In this document: in pieces, positions 1,596 through 5,912 of the stretch
How positions within the stretch are numbered: position 1 is the stretch's first letter
How the letters are laid out: the number at the start of each line of letters is the position of its first letter
Source: Phytoactinopolyspora endophytica
GTDB lineage: Bacteria > Actinomycetota > Actinomycetes > Jiangellales > Jiangellaceae
Direction of reading: 5' to 3'
DNA length: 11,810 nt
NCBI RefSeq assembly: GCF_004138495.1
Contig: NZ_ML142858.1
Location: forward strand, 50,054-61,863
Program-made: the position numbers and the translations under genes
Notes under the pieces: generated by a model
What the model saw: the letters and a program-made list of their open reading frames with translations, nothing else
Databases searched by the model: none
Told to the model about the DNA's origin: nothing

Positions 1596-2074
1596 TGACG
1601 GAAAGGGATGGTGGACGGCGCGACCTCGCCGCCATGCTCAGCCAGGTGATGCGCGCGCTCGGTGCAGTCGAATTACCCGTGCTGGACGCGCACGGAGTAT
1701 CCATGTGGGGGTACGTCGTTCTGACCGCGTTGCGGGAGAGCCCCGTGCGCACTCAAGCGGCGCTCGCCGAGGCGATCGGCGCTGACAAGACGCGGATCAT
1801 CGGCACCCTTGACGAGCTCCAGGAGGCCGGGCTCATCGTCCGTGAGCGCGACCCTGCCGATCGTCGCGCGCGGCTCCTGTCGATCACGGAAGAAGGACGC
1901 GAGGTACACAGCTCGACGCAGGCCGACATCCAGGAGAAGGAGAACCGCCTGCTCGCGATGCTGCCACCGGACGATCGGCGAGGATTTCTGAACGCGATCG
2001 AGGCCATGTCGGCCCTGCCGCGAGAGGACATCGTGGCCATGGCGGAACCGCCTGGTGGTGGAGCGCGTCGCTAG
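1595..2074 (+). CDS. MarR-family winged-helix transcriptional regulator
   Basis: This 159-residue protein has the usual MarR length and layout: helical dimerisation ends and a central winged helix. The recognition region runs RTQAALAEAIGADKTRIIGTLDELQEAGLI (about residues 52-80). It is followed by the wing motif RERDPADRRARLLSITEEG, in which DxRxR is the family signature. MarR proteins bind palindromes as dimers and usually release DNA on binding a small ligand. The divergent TIGR03086 gene and the palindrome between them suggest it represses that gene and itself. No Shine-Dalgarno precedes ATG 1595, and a -10-like TATGGT lies 6 bases before it. Its stop codon (TAG 2072-2074) overlaps the stop of the converging response-regulator gene. 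The ligand is unknown. Confidence 0.9.
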   Translation: MTERDGGRRDLAAMLSQVMRALGAVELPVLDAHGVSMWGYVVLTALRESPVRTQAALAEAIGADKTRIIGTLDELQEAGLIVRERDPADRRARLLSITEEGREVHSSTQADIQEKENRLLAMLPPDDRRGFLNAIEAMSALPREDIVAMAEPPGGGARR

Positions 2075-2754
2075 ATGAGGCGGCGGTCAGTGGCCCAGCG
2101 GGTCAGCTCGTAGCGGTTGGACAACTGGAGCTTGCGCAGCACCGCCGACACGTGGGTCTCCACGGTCTTGACCGAGATGAACAGCTCCTTGGCGATCTCC
2201 TTGTACGCATAGCCGCGGGCGATCAACCGCAGCACCTCCCGCTCGCGCTGCGTCAGCCGGTCGAGATCGTCGTCGACGCTGGGCGCCTCGGAGCCGGCGA
2301 ACGCGTCCAATACGAAGCCGGCCAGACGGGGAGAGAACACCGCGTCGCCGTCGGCCACACGGACGATCGCGCCGACCAGGTCGTCGCCCGTGATCGTCTT
2401 GGTCACGTAGCCGCGGGCGCCGGCACGGATGGTGCCGATGACGTCCTCGGCGGCATCCGATACCGACAGCGCGAGGAACTTGACGTCGGGAACCTCCGGG
2501 TGGAGCTGCCGCAGCACCTCGCCACCGCCACCGCCAGGGAGGTGGACATCCAGAAGCACGACCTCGGGCCGGAGCTGGGAGATCACCTTGATCGCCTCGG
2601 CCGTGTCGGCGGCCTCGCCGACGACGTCGACGGTATCGCTGGACTGGCTCAGCTCAGCACGGACACCGGTGCGGAACATCGCGTGGTCATCGACCAGCAC
2701 CACTCGCACCGGTCCGGTACGAGCCTCACCGCTGGGGTCGTTGGGCTCACTCAC
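2071..2754 (-). CDS. NarL/FixJ (LuxR C-terminal) two-component response regulator
   Basis: The protein has 227 residues from GTG 2754. An N-terminal receiver domain (about 17-135) carries the acidic pair Asp22-Asp23 (VLVDDH), phospho-acceptor Asp69 (VVLLDVHLPG), Ser97 and Lys119 (YVTK). A LuxR-type helix-turn-helix follows (about 165-227): LTQREREVLRLIARG, then YKEIAKELFISVKTVETHVSAVLRKL. GTG 2754 is chosen over GTG 2766 because GGAGG (2764-2760) lies 5 bases before it. It follows the sensor kinase gene by 69 bases on the same strand, so the two are probably co-transcribed partners. Phosphorylated NarL-type dimers bind short inverted repeats; the twin TCAGGG repeats between the two PspC genes are candidate targets. 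Functionally it resembles LiaR-like envelope-stress regulators, but the inducing signal is not known. Confidence 0.93.
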   Translation of the reverse strand: MSEPNDPSGEARTGPVRVVLVDDHAMFRTGVRAELSQSSDTVDVVGEAADTAEAIKVISQLRPEVVLLDVHLPGGGGGEVLRQLHPEVPDVKFLALSVSDAAEDVIGTIRAGARGYVTKTITGDDLVGAIVRVADGDAVFSPRLAGFVLDAFAGSEAPSVDDDLDRLTQREREVLRLIARGYAYKEIAKELFISVKTVETHVSAVLRKLQLSNRYELTRWATDRRLI

Positions 2755-2823: not shown

Positions 2824-4146
2824 TCACGCCTTCTTGGACAGCAGCTTGACCTCAGTGCCCTCGCCGGGCGCGGAACGGATCCGGGCGCTTCCGCCGTGGC
2901 GTTCCATCCGGTCGATGATCGATCGCCGGACACCGAGCCGGTCCTCGGGGATCTGGTCCAGATCGAACCCGGCGCCCCGATCGCGGACGAAGACCTCGAT
3001 GCCGTCGTCCATGGCCTCGAAGAAGATGTCGATCTTGTCGGCGCCGGAGTGTTTGGCGGCGTTGACGGCAGCCTCTCGCGCCGCGTTGAGCAGGGCGCGC
3101 CCGATGTCGTCGATCGGTGCGTCGCCGACCGTCACCACCTCGACGGGCACGCCGAAGGAGTCCTCTACTTCGGCGCCTGCGGTGGTGAACGCGGCCGCCA
3201 GCGACGACTCGTCCTCACTGCGGTCTCCGTACAGCCAGTTGCGCAGGTCGCGTTCCTGGCCGCGAGCGAGCTTGATCACCGTGCGCGGGTCATGGGCCTG
3301 CTTCTGGATGAGCGCGAGCGTCTGCAGCACCGAGTCGTGCAGGTGGGCGGCGACGTCGGCGCGCTCCTGGGTGACGATGCGCTGGCGACGTTCGGTCTCG
3401 GCCGTCCGCCACAGCTGCCAGAGCCACGGACCGAGTATCAGCCCGATGCCGACGAGCAGCACCACGATTCCGGAGAGTGCGTCGACCGTCGCGTCCAGCT
3501 CACCCTGCCCGGCGAGGAACACGATGACGCCGACGACCACCACCATCACGCCCGCACTGATCCGCAGCACGGCGATGCGGCCGCTGCCCGTCACGGCGCC
3601 CAGCAGCGGGAACCGCGGCGACAGGGCGGTCATGCGCTGCCGCTCCTTGGCATCCGCGGTACGCCACATGAGAGTGAGGCCACCCGCGGCGAGCATCATC
3701 GGCACGACGTATTCCGGGCTGATGCCGAGCGGCGTCTGCCCGAAGGCGAAGATCGTGCCGGTGCCGAGCAGTGCGAGCGCGGCAAACTGGCCGAGGTCCC
3801 CGGAGCGCTGCACGAGTGTGCGGCGTCGGCGCATGTTCGCGCGGGTAGCGGCGGCGATGCCGGCGGGAGCCGCATCCTCGGCGCGTTTCGCCAGAACCTG
3901 GTCCGACGGTGTGAAGATCCACAACGCGAGGTAGAGCACGAGGCCGAACCCGGAGAACGAGCTGAGCAGGGTAAACGCGACGCGCACCGTGATCGGCTGC
4001 AACCCGAGGTGTCTGGCGACGCCCGCAGCGACCCCAGCGACGAGCCGCCCGTCGGAGCGGCGCGCGAACCTGGGCGTCCCGCCCTCTGCGCGCGCGCCTG
4101 AGCCGTCCGCCCTCGAGGCGGACGACGGCTTAGGCGCAACACTCAT
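2824..4146 (-). CDS. PspC-domain sensor histidine kinase
   Basis: The protein has 440 residues from ATG 4146. A PspC domain lies at about 27-81 (RRSDGRLVAGVAAGVARHLG, then a hydrophobic helix ending LYLALWIFTPS). Further membrane segments fall near 121-137, 148-161, 192-212 and 224-243. The HisKA_3 dimerisation segment has ERADVAAHLHDSVLQTL with phospho-acceptor His270. The ATPase domain shows the N box (EAAVNAAKHS, Asn362), G1 (DRGAGFD, 389-395) and G2 (GEGTEV). It should sense an envelope state through the PspC/membrane part and phosphorylate the response regulator encoded downstream. ATG 4146 is preferred over ATG 4182 because the latter lies inside the predicted operator, and a -10-like element sits 6 bases before 4146. 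It is divergent from a second PspC-domain gene. The combination of PspC, kinase, LuxR regulator and toastrack protein is known from Actinomycetota. Confidence 0.92.
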   Translation of the reverse strand: MSVAPKPSSASRADGSGARAEGGTPRFARRSDGRLVAGVAAGVARHLGLQPITVRVAFTLLSSFSGFGLVLYLALWIFTPSDQVLAKRAEDAAPAGIAAATRANMRRRRTLVQRSGDLGQFAALALLGTGTIFAFGQTPLGISPEYVVPMMLAAGGLTLMWRTADAKERQRMTALSPRFPLLGAVTGSGRIAVLRISAGVMVVVVGVIVFLAGQGELDATVDALSGIVVLLVGIGLILGPWLWQLWRTAETERRQRIVTQERADVAAHLHDSVLQTLALIQKQAHDPRTVIKLARGQERDLRNWLYGDRSEDESSLAAAFTTAGAEVEDSFGVPVEVVTVGDAPIDDIGRALLNAAREAAVNAAKHSGADKIDIFFEAMDDGIEVFVRDRGAGFDLDQIPEDRLGVRRSIIDRMERHGGSARIRSAPGEGTEVKLLSKKA

Positions 4147-4158
4147 ACCTTGATACTC
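4146..4158 (-). promoter_or_regulatory. Candidate -10 region of the PspC kinase gene
   Basis: On the minus strand GAGTAT (4158-4153) lies 6 bases before ATG 4146, with no Shine-Dalgarno, so the transcript could be leaderless. The hexamer is a weak -10 and has no clear -35, as expected for an activator-dependent promoter. AGTATC is mirrored exactly by the promoter on the other side of the spacer. Confidence 0.4.
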
Positions 4159-4181
4159 ACACGCGGAGGCGTTCGCCGCCA

Positions 4182-4197
4182 TGAGGGAAGCCCCTGA
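4182..4197 (-). promoter_or_regulatory. Candidate response-regulator operator, kinase side
   Basis: Read on the minus strand this is TCAGGG-GCTT-CCCTCA, a 16-bp inverted repeat with 5 of 6 arm pairs matching. Its centre (4189.5) is about 43.5 bases upstream of ATG 4146. If transcription starts at that ATG, the site overlaps the missing -35 region, the classic place for an activator. Confidence 0.5.
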
Positions 4198-4213
4198 GCT
4201 CGTCCGGGAGCAT

Positions 4214-4229
4214 TCAGGGTGATCCCCGA
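4214..4229 (+). promoter_or_regulatory. Candidate response-regulator operator, toastrack side
   Basis: TCAGGG-TGAT-CCCCGA is a 16-bp inverted repeat with 5 of 6 arm pairs matching. Its centre (4221.5) is about 44.5 bases upstream of ATG 4266. It is the mirror image of the site at 4182-4197 about position 4205.5, and both sites are followed by ATGG at the same distance. Confidence 0.5.
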
Positions 4230-4252
4230 TGGTGACACGGCGAAGTTCGCGG

Positions 4253-4266
4253 CAGTATCGATGTCA
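4253..4266 (+). promoter_or_regulatory. Candidate -10 region of the PspC-toastrack gene
   Basis: CAGTAT (4253-4258) lies 7 bases before ATG 4266, with no Shine-Dalgarno in between, so the message may be leaderless. GTGACA at 4232-4237 resembles a -35 but its 15-base spacing is short. Control by an activator bound at 4214-4229 is more likely. Confidence 0.4.
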
Positions 4267-5912
4267 TGACCGAGATGCCGTCCAACCCGTCGCCAGGCGG
4301 ACGCACCGATACGACCACTGGCGGGATGACCGAAGAACTCCGCACCTTCCGCCGCAGCCAGTCGAACCGCGTGATCGCGGGCGTGCTCGGTGGCCTGGGC
4401 CGGCGTCTCGGCGTCGACCCGCTGGTCCTGCGGATCGTCACCGGCGTGCTCGCGCTGTTCGGCGGCGTGGGTCTGCTGCTCTACGCCCTCGCGTGGCTGC
4501 TGATCCCGGCGGAACAGGAGCCGGCATCCGTGCTCGACCAGGCGATCGGTCGGCGAGAGGTGCGCGATGCCGCGGCTGTTCCGCTGGCGCTGGCTCTCGG
4601 TGCGGTGGTGGTGATCTCGTCCGGCGTGATCATCGGTTCGTCGTGGAACTCCTGGTTCCTCCTGCTGTTGGCGGCCTGTGGACTGTTCATGCTGGTGAAG
4701 CGTAGGGGAGAGACCGGCACGTCAGCGGACGAGGCGGGTGACTTCGGGTACGAGCCGCCGGCTGCCGGTATGTACGAGCCCTGGTCGGCGATGCCCGCAC
4801 CCGGCGAGGCGCCGCTCGACACGGCACAGACCGGCGCCACGGGATGGGATCTTGTGTCTCCTCCGGGAACGGCCGGTGTCGGCGAAGAGCCGTCGGGCGA
4901 CGCGGACGGGAACGCGCCACGCACGCCGGAACCCGACGCGGACGAGGTCACGGGGTCGGCTGGCGCGGCCGGACACACTGGAGAGGCCGGGCCGGCTGGA
5001 CAAACGGGGGCAGCCGGGCCAGCTGGCGCAGCCGGGCAGCGAGAGACGGAGCACGTCGAGCCGGTGGGACGGGCGGCGCCCGGCGGGCCGCAGCCCCATG
5101 TCGGAACCGGCTGGCCCGAGGGCCCGGACTGGGGGATCCCCGGGGGGCAGAGGTCGCCCTACGACGACGTCTACCTCGTCCCGGGACCGGAGCAGGCACC
5201 TCCGCTGGACAAACGGCAACGACCGCGTTCTGTTCTCGGGCTGCTGACCTTCTGCTCGGCGCTGATCTCGGTAGGTGTTCTGGCATTGATCGAGCAGGCC
5301 GCAGACGTCGACCCCGCCCTCTACGTGGCGGTGCCGCTGGCGGTCGTCGCCCTCGGGCTCCTCCTCGGTACATGGTTCGGCCGCTCTCGCGGTCTGATCT
5401 TCCTGGGCTTCCTGCTCATCCTGGCGCTCATCCCGGCCACCGCGTTGAGTAAATTGGGCGGATCCTGGGGAGACGCGACATACGTTGCGCCCGCGAGCCT
5501 CGCCGACTTGCCGTCCGAACCTTTCGAGCATGCGGCAGGAACGATTCACTACGACCTTTCCGCCCTGCAGCTGGACGACGAGGACCATGCCGATGTCACC
5601 ATCGACGTCGGCGCCGGCGAGTTGACGGTCATCGTTCCGGAGAATGTCGACGTCGTCGCGAATACGGACGTCGGGATGGGCGACTACACCGTCTTCGACG
5701 AGTCGGCGTCCGGTATCGGTGTCGGCCAGCAGGTCACCGACCTCAGCTCGGACGGAGCAGCCGGTGGCACGATCGAGCTGAACATCGATGTCGCGCTGGG
5801 CACGGTGGTCGTTGAACGGGACCACGGGGCCGAACTGCCCCGGCAGCCGGGCCCGTCAGAGACTGGGCAGGTAGGGGTGCCAGCGCCGCAGACCGAAGGG
5901 GACAACCGATGA
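4266..5912 (+). CDS. PspC-domain membrane protein with C-terminal LiaF/toastrack-like domain
   Basis: The protein has 548 residues. A PspC domain lies at about 27-82 (SQSNRVIAGVLGGLGRRLG, then a hydrophobic helix). Hydrophobic segments follow near 103-125 and 127-145. Next is a ~170-residue low-complexity Pro/Gly/Ala/acidic linker (150-320) ending in basic KRQRPR, then three more membrane helices (about 323-342, 352-369, 375-393). The C-terminal beta-rich domain (about 416-518) has repeating blocks such as ADVTIDVGAGELTVIVPENVDV and the final GTVVVERDHG, typical of toastrack/LiaF-C domains. Positive residues around the last three helices put the linker inside and the toastrack domain outside the membrane. 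Such proteins tune Lia/Psp-type stress sensing, so it probably works with the divergent kinase. It overlaps the next gene by 4 bases (ATGA). Residues 230-259 form a collagen-like repeat. Confidence 0.88.
   Translation: MTEMPSNPSPGGRTDTTTGGMTEELRTFRRSQSNRVIAGVLGGLGRRLGVDPLVLRIVTGVLALFGGVGLLLYALAWLLIPAEQEPASVLDQAIGRREVRDAAAVPLALALGAVVVISSGVIIGSSWNSWFLLLLAACGLFMLVKRRGETGTSADEAGDFGYEPPAAGMYEPWSAMPAPGEAPLDTAQTGATGWDLVSPPGTAGVGEEPSGDADGNAPRTPEPDADEVTGSAGAAGHTGEAGPAGQTGAAGPAGAAGQRETEHVEPVGRAAPGGPQPHVGTGWPEGPDWGIPGGQRSPYDDVYLVPGPEQAPPLDKRQRPRSVLGLLTFCSALISVGVLALIEQAADVDPALYVAVPLAVVALGLLLGTWFGRSRGLIFLGFLLILALIPATALSKLGGSWGDATYVAPASLADLPSEPFEHAAGTIHYDLSALQLDDEDHADVTIDVGAGELTVIVPENVDVVANTDVGMGDYTVFDESASGIGVGQQVTDLSSDGAAGGTIELNIDVALGTVVVERDHGAELPRQPGPSETGQVGVPAPQTEGDNR
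4953..5042 (+). repeat. Collagen-like Gly-X-Y coding repeat inside the PspC-toastrack gene
   Basis: Ten consecutive Gly-X-Y triplets occupy residues 230-259 with no break in register. X-Y pairs include PA (twice), AA (three times), EA, QT and HT. At DNA level the sequence GCCGGGCC[GA]GCTGG recurs (around 4988 and 5018), indicating growth by short tandem duplication. It lies in the predicted cytoplasmic linker, an unusual place for this repeat. Confidence 0.75.

Follow-up and report, generated by a model that had tools for sequence, protein, structure and literature searches.

A conserved candidate operator in the divergent promoters of a putative EsrISR/LiaFSR-like locus of Jiangellaceae

Introduction

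Among the described systems closest to the locus analyzed here is EsrISR of Corynebacterium glutamicum, for which the primary paper is reportedly that of Kleine et al. 2017. EsrISR, also named CgtSR7, is described as a three-component system (PMC6975037, PMC9960051, PMC9239133, PMC3353115). Its kinase CgtS7 (Cg0707) consists of PspC, HisKA_3, and HATPase_c domains, and CgtR7 (Cg0709) is a regulator of the LuxR type (PMC3353115). EsrI (cg0706) has been termed an inhibitor of EsrSR; the regulon given in the same source includes esrI, cg1325, and rsmP and has bacitracin and vancomycin as inducers, and expression of esrI increased 2.31-fold during secretion of AmyE, not of cutinase (PMC6975037). 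In another report, EsrISR represses nlpC under envelope stress (PMC9960051). Other systems relevant for comparison are LiaFSR/VraTSR of the Bacillota and MacRS of Streptomyces coelicolor.

Here we describe a divergent pair of PspC genes and the spacer between them in an 11,810-nucleotide stretch of DNA (referred to below as the window) from contig C10 of the 7.6 Mb genome (G000) of Phytoactinopolyspora endophytica, a member of the Jiangellaceae, which is the family meant throughout the text.

Results

Gene content of the locus and its relation to known systems

The genes considered in this study are the following:

2071-2754, minus strand: NarL/LuxR-type response regulator with Response_reg and GerE domains; start codon GTG 2754 or GTG 2766
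2824-4146, minus strand: PspC-domain histidine kinase, 440 aa (PF04024, HATPase_c)
4266-5912, plus strand: membrane protein with a PspC domain and a LiaF-like C-terminal (toastrack) domain, 548 aa (PF04024, PF09922)

As described for EsrISR, the histidine kinase has an N-terminal PspC domain (PF04024 at residues 26-81, with HATPase_c at 351-435), the gene of a LuxR/GerE-type response regulator of about 230 aa stands beside it, and a third PspC membrane component is also adjacent to the kinase (cg0706 and cg0707 in C. glutamicum, where a role in envelope stress is described). A divergent PspC neighbor of the kinase is found in 76 of 80 named loci. Features that set the locus apart from EsrISR as described are the LiaF-like C-terminal domain of its third component, twin operator-like sites at nearly fixed distances, and a DUF1707 gene as a probable target.

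The LiaF-like domain, the NarL-type regulator, and the envelope-stress logic are shared with LiaFSR/VraTSR, whereas the N-terminal PspC domain of the kinase and the divergent orientation of the LiaF-like gene are not. The toastrack protein scores 31.9 bits against PF09922 (cut-off 29) and 30.7 bits against the NCBIfam model LiaF_C_term, below its cut-off of 57. By its kinase the locus does not belong to LiaFSR, since the score is 42.1 bits against the Strep_LiaS cut-off of 450. The best NCBIfam model for the kinase is MacS, and here too the 93.9 bits obtained are far below the cut-off of 300, so that membership in MacRS was rejected. Moreover, the MacR motif, which is said to be TGAGTAC-N2-GTACTCA, differs from the sites described below. 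Judging from its parts, the locus is best read as an EsrISR/LiaFSR-like three-component system, in which the product of the toastrack arm is, by analogy, a probable inhibitor of the kinase.

A relative of the response regulator is present in all 110 loci checked. Residues of the window's regulator are shared, on average, by 92% of loci in the DNA-binding domain and by 72% in the receiver domain, and the proteins of solved structure closest to it are NarL, DevR, and VraR. A third PspC domain is encoded in the same genome about 46 kb from the window's pair (L259, G000:C10:100875-101033), located C-terminally in an open frame of 506 residues, part of which is masked.

Symmetry of the spacer and parts of the two promoters

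The spacer between the kinase gene (minus strand) and the divergent PspC/LiaF-like gene (plus strand) occupies positions 4147-4265 (119 bp). An earlier note on this DNA had proposed a dyad centered at 4205.5, and this is indeed the best axis of the spacer, with all of its coordinates reproduced. Around it, 31 of 59 position pairs are complementary, a value reached by none of 2000 dinucleotide-preserving shuffles (mean 22.1, sd 1.7). With a looser criterion, the best match between two 19-nt arms (14 of 19 positions), 16 of 500 shuffles did at least equally well; since this signal is weaker, the strength of the dyad lies in the whole register and not in any one pair of arms. In particular, TCAGGG at 4214-4219 (plus strand) is mirrored at 4192-4197 (minus strand), AGTATC at 4254-4259 is mirrored at 4152-4157, and TCCC and ATGG stand at the same offsets from the axis on both strands.

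The same note held that each TCAGGG heads an inverted repeat of its own about 44 bases 5' of the start codon. Both repeats are present, in imperfect form: TCAGGGTGATCCCCGA at 4214-4229 on the plus strand, with its center 44.5 bp upstream of ATG 4266, and TCAGGGGCTTCCCTCA at 4197-4182 on the minus strand, with its center 43.5 bp upstream of ATG 4146. Among 59 toastrack sites, the third base is complementary between the half-sites in only eight, and a perfect covarying palindrome is thus ruled out. The elements recognized in the spacer, in order of position, are:

4153-4158, minus strand: -10-like GAGTAT preceded by TG-N, 6 bp before ATG 4146
to 4179, minus strand: extended core of the kinase arm
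4182-4197, minus strand: candidate operator of the kinase arm, TCAGGG-N4-CCCTCA, 51 bp before ATG 4146
4203-4208, plus strand: third half-site TCCGGG, beginning 11 bp upstream of 4214 and centered on the dyad axis
4214-4229, plus strand: candidate operator of the toastrack arm, TCAGGG-N4-CCCCGA, 52 bp before ATG 4266
to 4232, plus strand: extended core of the toastrack arm, TCAGGGTGATCCCCGATGG, ending about 33 bp before the ATG
4253-4258, plus strand: -10-like CAGTAT, 7 bp before ATG 4266

The third half-site, which was absent from the earlier note, distinguishes the two arms. At -11, roughly a helical turn further upstream, 15 of the 20 toastrack arms of the family and 21 of 38 from outside have a half-site matching TCAGGG in at least five of six positions; any other offset from 6 to 20 is matched by at most three loci. 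The kinase arms have it in none of 19 family loci and in six of 12 outside. The equality of the arms that the note assumed is therefore not borne out within the family (15/20 vs 0/19). In the window itself, TCCGGG stands at -11 of both operators, since its center coincides with the dyad axis, and is oriented towards the toastrack arm; the arrangement is identical in the nearest relative, G002.

Inspection by eye revealed no Shine-Dalgarno sequence at proper spacing on either arm. Because -10-like elements are located 6-7 bp before the ATG codons, the mRNAs of both arms are probably leaderless, and a start at the ATG would place the operators near -44. A dimer centered near -44 occupies the classical activator position. 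Across loci, a -10 element resembling CATCAT/CANNNT is conserved before the ATG of the toastrack arms, and GTGTGA-N2-ATCGA is strongly conserved before the ATG of the family kinase arms. Neither sigma-70 consensus promoters nor terminators were found in 3900-4500, and no Rfam model matched this interval at gathering score. In Mycobacterium tuberculosis, leaderless transcripts with a TANNNT -10 element and without a -35 consensus are reported to be common (PMC3898074).

Conservation of the site among divergent PspC loci

Spacers were collected in three sets. The first genome search gave 29 of 30 loci (L016 is cut by a contig end and was dropped), the second set yielded 34 out of 35 additional stretches (L144, which is that same truncated locus, was dropped), and the third of 76 of 80 named loci, where L196, L204, L237, and L250 were dropped for lack of either a kinase PspC match or a divergent PspC neighbor; the divergent PspC pair is kept in exactly these proportions. 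Kinase orthologs at E <= 1e-30 are present in 71 genomes, 64 of which were examined, the other seven having partial or contig-end matches. Deduplication left 134 spacers, 20 from the family and 114 from outside. Family members in which the kinase locus was matched include Haloactinopolyspora alba, Jiangella aurantiaca, and J. asiatica.

The string TCAGGG-N3-TCCC-N2-ATGG was defined on the window alone and tested out of sample. On the toastrack strand it occurs exactly in 18 of the 114 outside spacers (in none of 60 shuffle rounds), and with up to two mismatches in 47 (shuffle mean 0.4). On the kinase strand there are no exact occurrences and, among the 114 spacers, 17 with up to two mismatches (shuffle means, 0 and 0.23 respectively); part of the 17 are toastrack sites read in reverse, as the site is nearly palindromic. 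Phylogenetic footprinting, the check suggested in the earlier note, thus shows the site to be conserved beyond the Jiangellaceae, in the form TCAGGG-N4-CCC(C/T)(G/C)AT(G).

Positions were counted allowing up to three mismatches and requiring an in-frame ATG. In the toastrack arm the site begins 51-52 bp before the ATG in all 20 family loci. Outside the family, the sequence taken for analysis included an in-frame ATG in 89 of 114 cases, 50 of which also have the site, in 39 cases at 51-53 bp; in the other 75 of the 114 arms no site in this register was found with up to three mismatches, 25 of the 114 being without an in-frame ATG in the sequence taken. For the kinase arm, 19 of 20 family loci have the site at 51-53 bp from the ATG, the exception (L003) having a GTG at 51 bp. 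Of the 114 outside spacers, 85 have an ATG, both site and ATG are present in 18, and in 12 the site is at 51-55 bp. Many Streptomyces have at best a variant of the site.

The distance between the two operators behaves differently. Of the 23 loci in which both arms are in register, those of the window and of G002 have a gap of 16 bp, 13 belonging to two sister genera have 17-20 bp, and the remaining eight have 28-55 bp; in L003 simple arithmetic gives about 300 bp. Since the gap varies (16-55 bp in the 23 loci) while the distance from site to ATG is nearly constant, the symmetry is explained by two similar promoters placed back to back, and the mirror as a functional unit, as originally suggested, is ruled out. 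The spacer is one promoter module used twice, with the mirror as a by-product.

Occurrence of the site elsewhere in the family

The exact core TCNGGGNNNTCCCNNATG occurs three times in the genome of P. endophytica, in both arms of the spacer and upstream of an MMPL transporter gene. When one mismatch is allowed, the count rises to 66, vs 15 for the reversed pattern; many of these matches lie in coding frames, and several candidate promoters among them were rejected for this reason. In 22 family genomes the exact core is found 59 times vs three for the reversed pattern, an excess that is partly due to coding sequence. The exact matches TC(C/A)GGGACGTCCCGGATG in six Jiangella-like genomes were likewise discarded as promoters, as they map within or at a single conserved gene region and have the appearance of coding sequence.

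Adding the distance to the ATG as a criterion singled out a second conserved target, the gene of a DUF1707 (SHOCT-like, PF08044) membrane protein, which is unlinked to the window (G000:C4:171610-172083; L290:1608-2084). Of the 22 family genomes, 21 have the inverted repeat upstream of the best homolog of this gene, at a distance of 51-52 bp from the ATG (with one mismatch in a single genome), and the -10 element of these promoters is (G/C)ATACT. In the remaining genome, G007, which is 81% complete and without a kinase ortholog, the best homolog is no more than a distant relative (37% identity). The site was not found in the 75 bp shown before eight lower-ranking DUF1707 homologs. A third half-site (at least five of six matches) accompanies six of the 21 repeats. 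Most DUF1707 sites share a conserved center of their own, GTTA, and for this reason a second regulator of similar specificity is possible. Based on the repeat and its position, the DUF1707 gene is a probable member of the regulon. The DUF1707 family has been tied to PSP systems through domain architectures (PMC11237479).

Other occurrences are observed in one or two genomes each. The exact core lies between TetR-like and MMPL genes in P. endophytica (L090, G000:C5:292630-292647) and in G002 (L092); as only these two of the 29 MMPL loci examined, paralogs included, have the site, the MMPL gene was rejected as a family-wide target. In the same two genomes, a site-like repeat precedes both the conserved stretch CGTGACCTAGACCACAGGAGCCGCCATG and an adjoining short ORF (L291, G000:C8:232749-232801; L292, G002:C7:123908-123961); the ORFs (17 and 43 aa) begin with MR-(E/A)-(L/S)-RTGTNLYGS and look like a conserved small peptide or leader. 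In L100 (G000:C13, about 182500), TCAGGGCGTTCCCTGAGG is located upstream of a gene for a membrane protein of 60-69 aa, for which no Pfam match was found and which is followed by the gene of a longer multi-pass membrane protein. Finally, a 55-bp stretch containing a site-like core is repeated almost identically at 14 places in the Jiangella-like genome G015 and is probably a mobile element.

Occurrence of the module in genomes of the class

A strict form of the module has 24 occurrences in 21 of 148 genomes of the class, and the reversed control has none. Translations inspected by eye place 19 of the 24 before a PspC gene; the other five precede an MMPL gene, a TetR gene, the gene of a 149-aa membrane protein (in two genomes), and an uncharacterized ORF. 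An MMPL gene follows the module in L349, and the conserved 149-aa protein, which has no assigned family, is that of L345 and L350 (genomes G104 and G037 of one genus).

Among 99 relatives, 20 genomes contain a similar module, with 29 occurrences in total (control, 1). Each of the 20 belongs to the 71 genomes with a kinase ortholog, and none is among the 28 without one, a co-occurrence that is partly circular, since many of the matches are the kinase locus itself; the genomes without the kinase are also smaller on average. Under a loose filter, 11 of 16 stretches from a Nocardia-like family have at least one match and five have none. The exact core is found 50-51 bp before the kinase ATG in two of four stretches from one genus with genomes of 2.2-2.9 Mb. 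This genus is possibly Corynebacterium; the 62-70% G+C of the four stretches is presumably too high for C. glutamicum. No kinase at E <= 1e-30 was found in three further sampled genomes of the genus.

Discussion

The recurrence of the site in many relatives, and again before at least one further membrane-protein gene, suggests that it is probably bound by the partner regulator of the kinase, and the site is best read as the operator of the response regulator encoded at 2071-2754. The earlier proposal is supported with respect to two operators of the NarL type, centered near -44 in promoters that are probably leaderless, with the adjacent regulator as the best candidate for the binding protein. 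We consider it likely that this regulator activates both copies of the module, in a circuit with mixed feedback and a wider regulon. In favor of this reading, the kinase is present in 20 of 20 genomes with the module, and the module in none of the 28 kinase-less genomes; on the other hand, outside the family the kinase-arm site is in register in only 12 of 114 spacers. In a literature search covering titles and abstract openings, no paper on the motif was seen, although it may already be in print.

Starting from the sites, their positions and conservation, and their recurrence at an unlinked gene, we infer the following scheme. The PspC kinase would sense envelope stress, and the phosphorylated regulator would bind both operators of the spacer as well as unlinked ones. 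On each arm, a dimer bound to TCAGGG-N4-CCC(C/T)(G/C)A would be centered near -44, adjoining the position of a poor -35, and would recruit RNA polymerase to the -10 element that precedes the ATG by 6-7 bp, giving rise to a leaderless mRNA. The third half-site at -11 may strengthen the toastrack arm, making the inhibitor arm the more sensitive or the stronger one. More kinase and regulator would mean positive feedback, and more of the PspC-LiaF-like protein negative feedback, if it damps the kinase as EsrI/LiaF does; the feedback is expected to be mixed because the toastrack arm encodes the probable inhibitor. Other genes bearing the module, such as that of the DUF1707 SHOCT-like membrane protein, would join the regulon.

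This circuit differs from the symmetric positive-feedback switch that the earlier note read from the mirror, with both arms responding equally. The nearly equal distances of the sites in the two arms of family loci agree with such a switch, but the gap of 16-55 bp in 23 loci, the third half-site serving one arm only in the family, and a toastrack-arm product that resembles the inhibitor EsrI, so that both signs of feedback are expected, make it highly improbable. A different question is whether the operators are real but bound by another regulator of the NarL type, with the neighboring one acting elsewhere. NarL-family regulators with GGG/CCC half-sites are known (the DevR-type motif), DevR is one of the closest solved relatives of the window's regulator, and most DUF1707 sites have their distinct center. 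Set against this are the 19 of 24 strict modules that precede PspC genes in 148 genomes, the lack of the module in all 28 genomes without a kinase ortholog, and the regulator relative present at 110 of 110 loci, and we regard binding by another protein as unlikely.

The adjacent regulator could also bind and repress one or both arms, with the outer half-site reaching towards -35. The extended core of the window, which ends about 33 bp before the ATG, is compatible with repression, as is the effect of EsrISR reported for nlpC; nevertheless, we think repression improbable, given that esrI, the counterpart of the toastrack gene, was reported to be induced during AmyE secretion, that the interval 3900-4500 contains no match to the sigma-70 consensus, and that a dimer near -44 is in the usual activating place.

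Beyond activation by the adjacent regulator, a class-wide grammar can be imagined, with half-sites starting at about -63, -52, and -42 of leaderless start codons, that marks the actinobacterial PspC regulon across many families and in which one central half-site could be shared by both arms. Such sharing is suggested by the window and its nearest relative, where the single central half-site lies on the dyad axis at 11 bp from either operator, and we put the grammar forward as a tentative and rather doubtful extension. If true, it would connect the PspC stress response with DUF1707 SHOCT-like membrane proteins that stand alone and with some MMPL transporters, and the shared central half-site could set the ratio of kinase to inhibitor.

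The site provides a candidate operator for a widespread envelope-stress system outside Corynebacterium, whose regulon may be predicted from sequence, and the DUF1707 protein is tied through DNA to the same probable regulator as the PspC pair. The spacer further illustrates that a striking mirror can arise from a single promoter design deployed twice.
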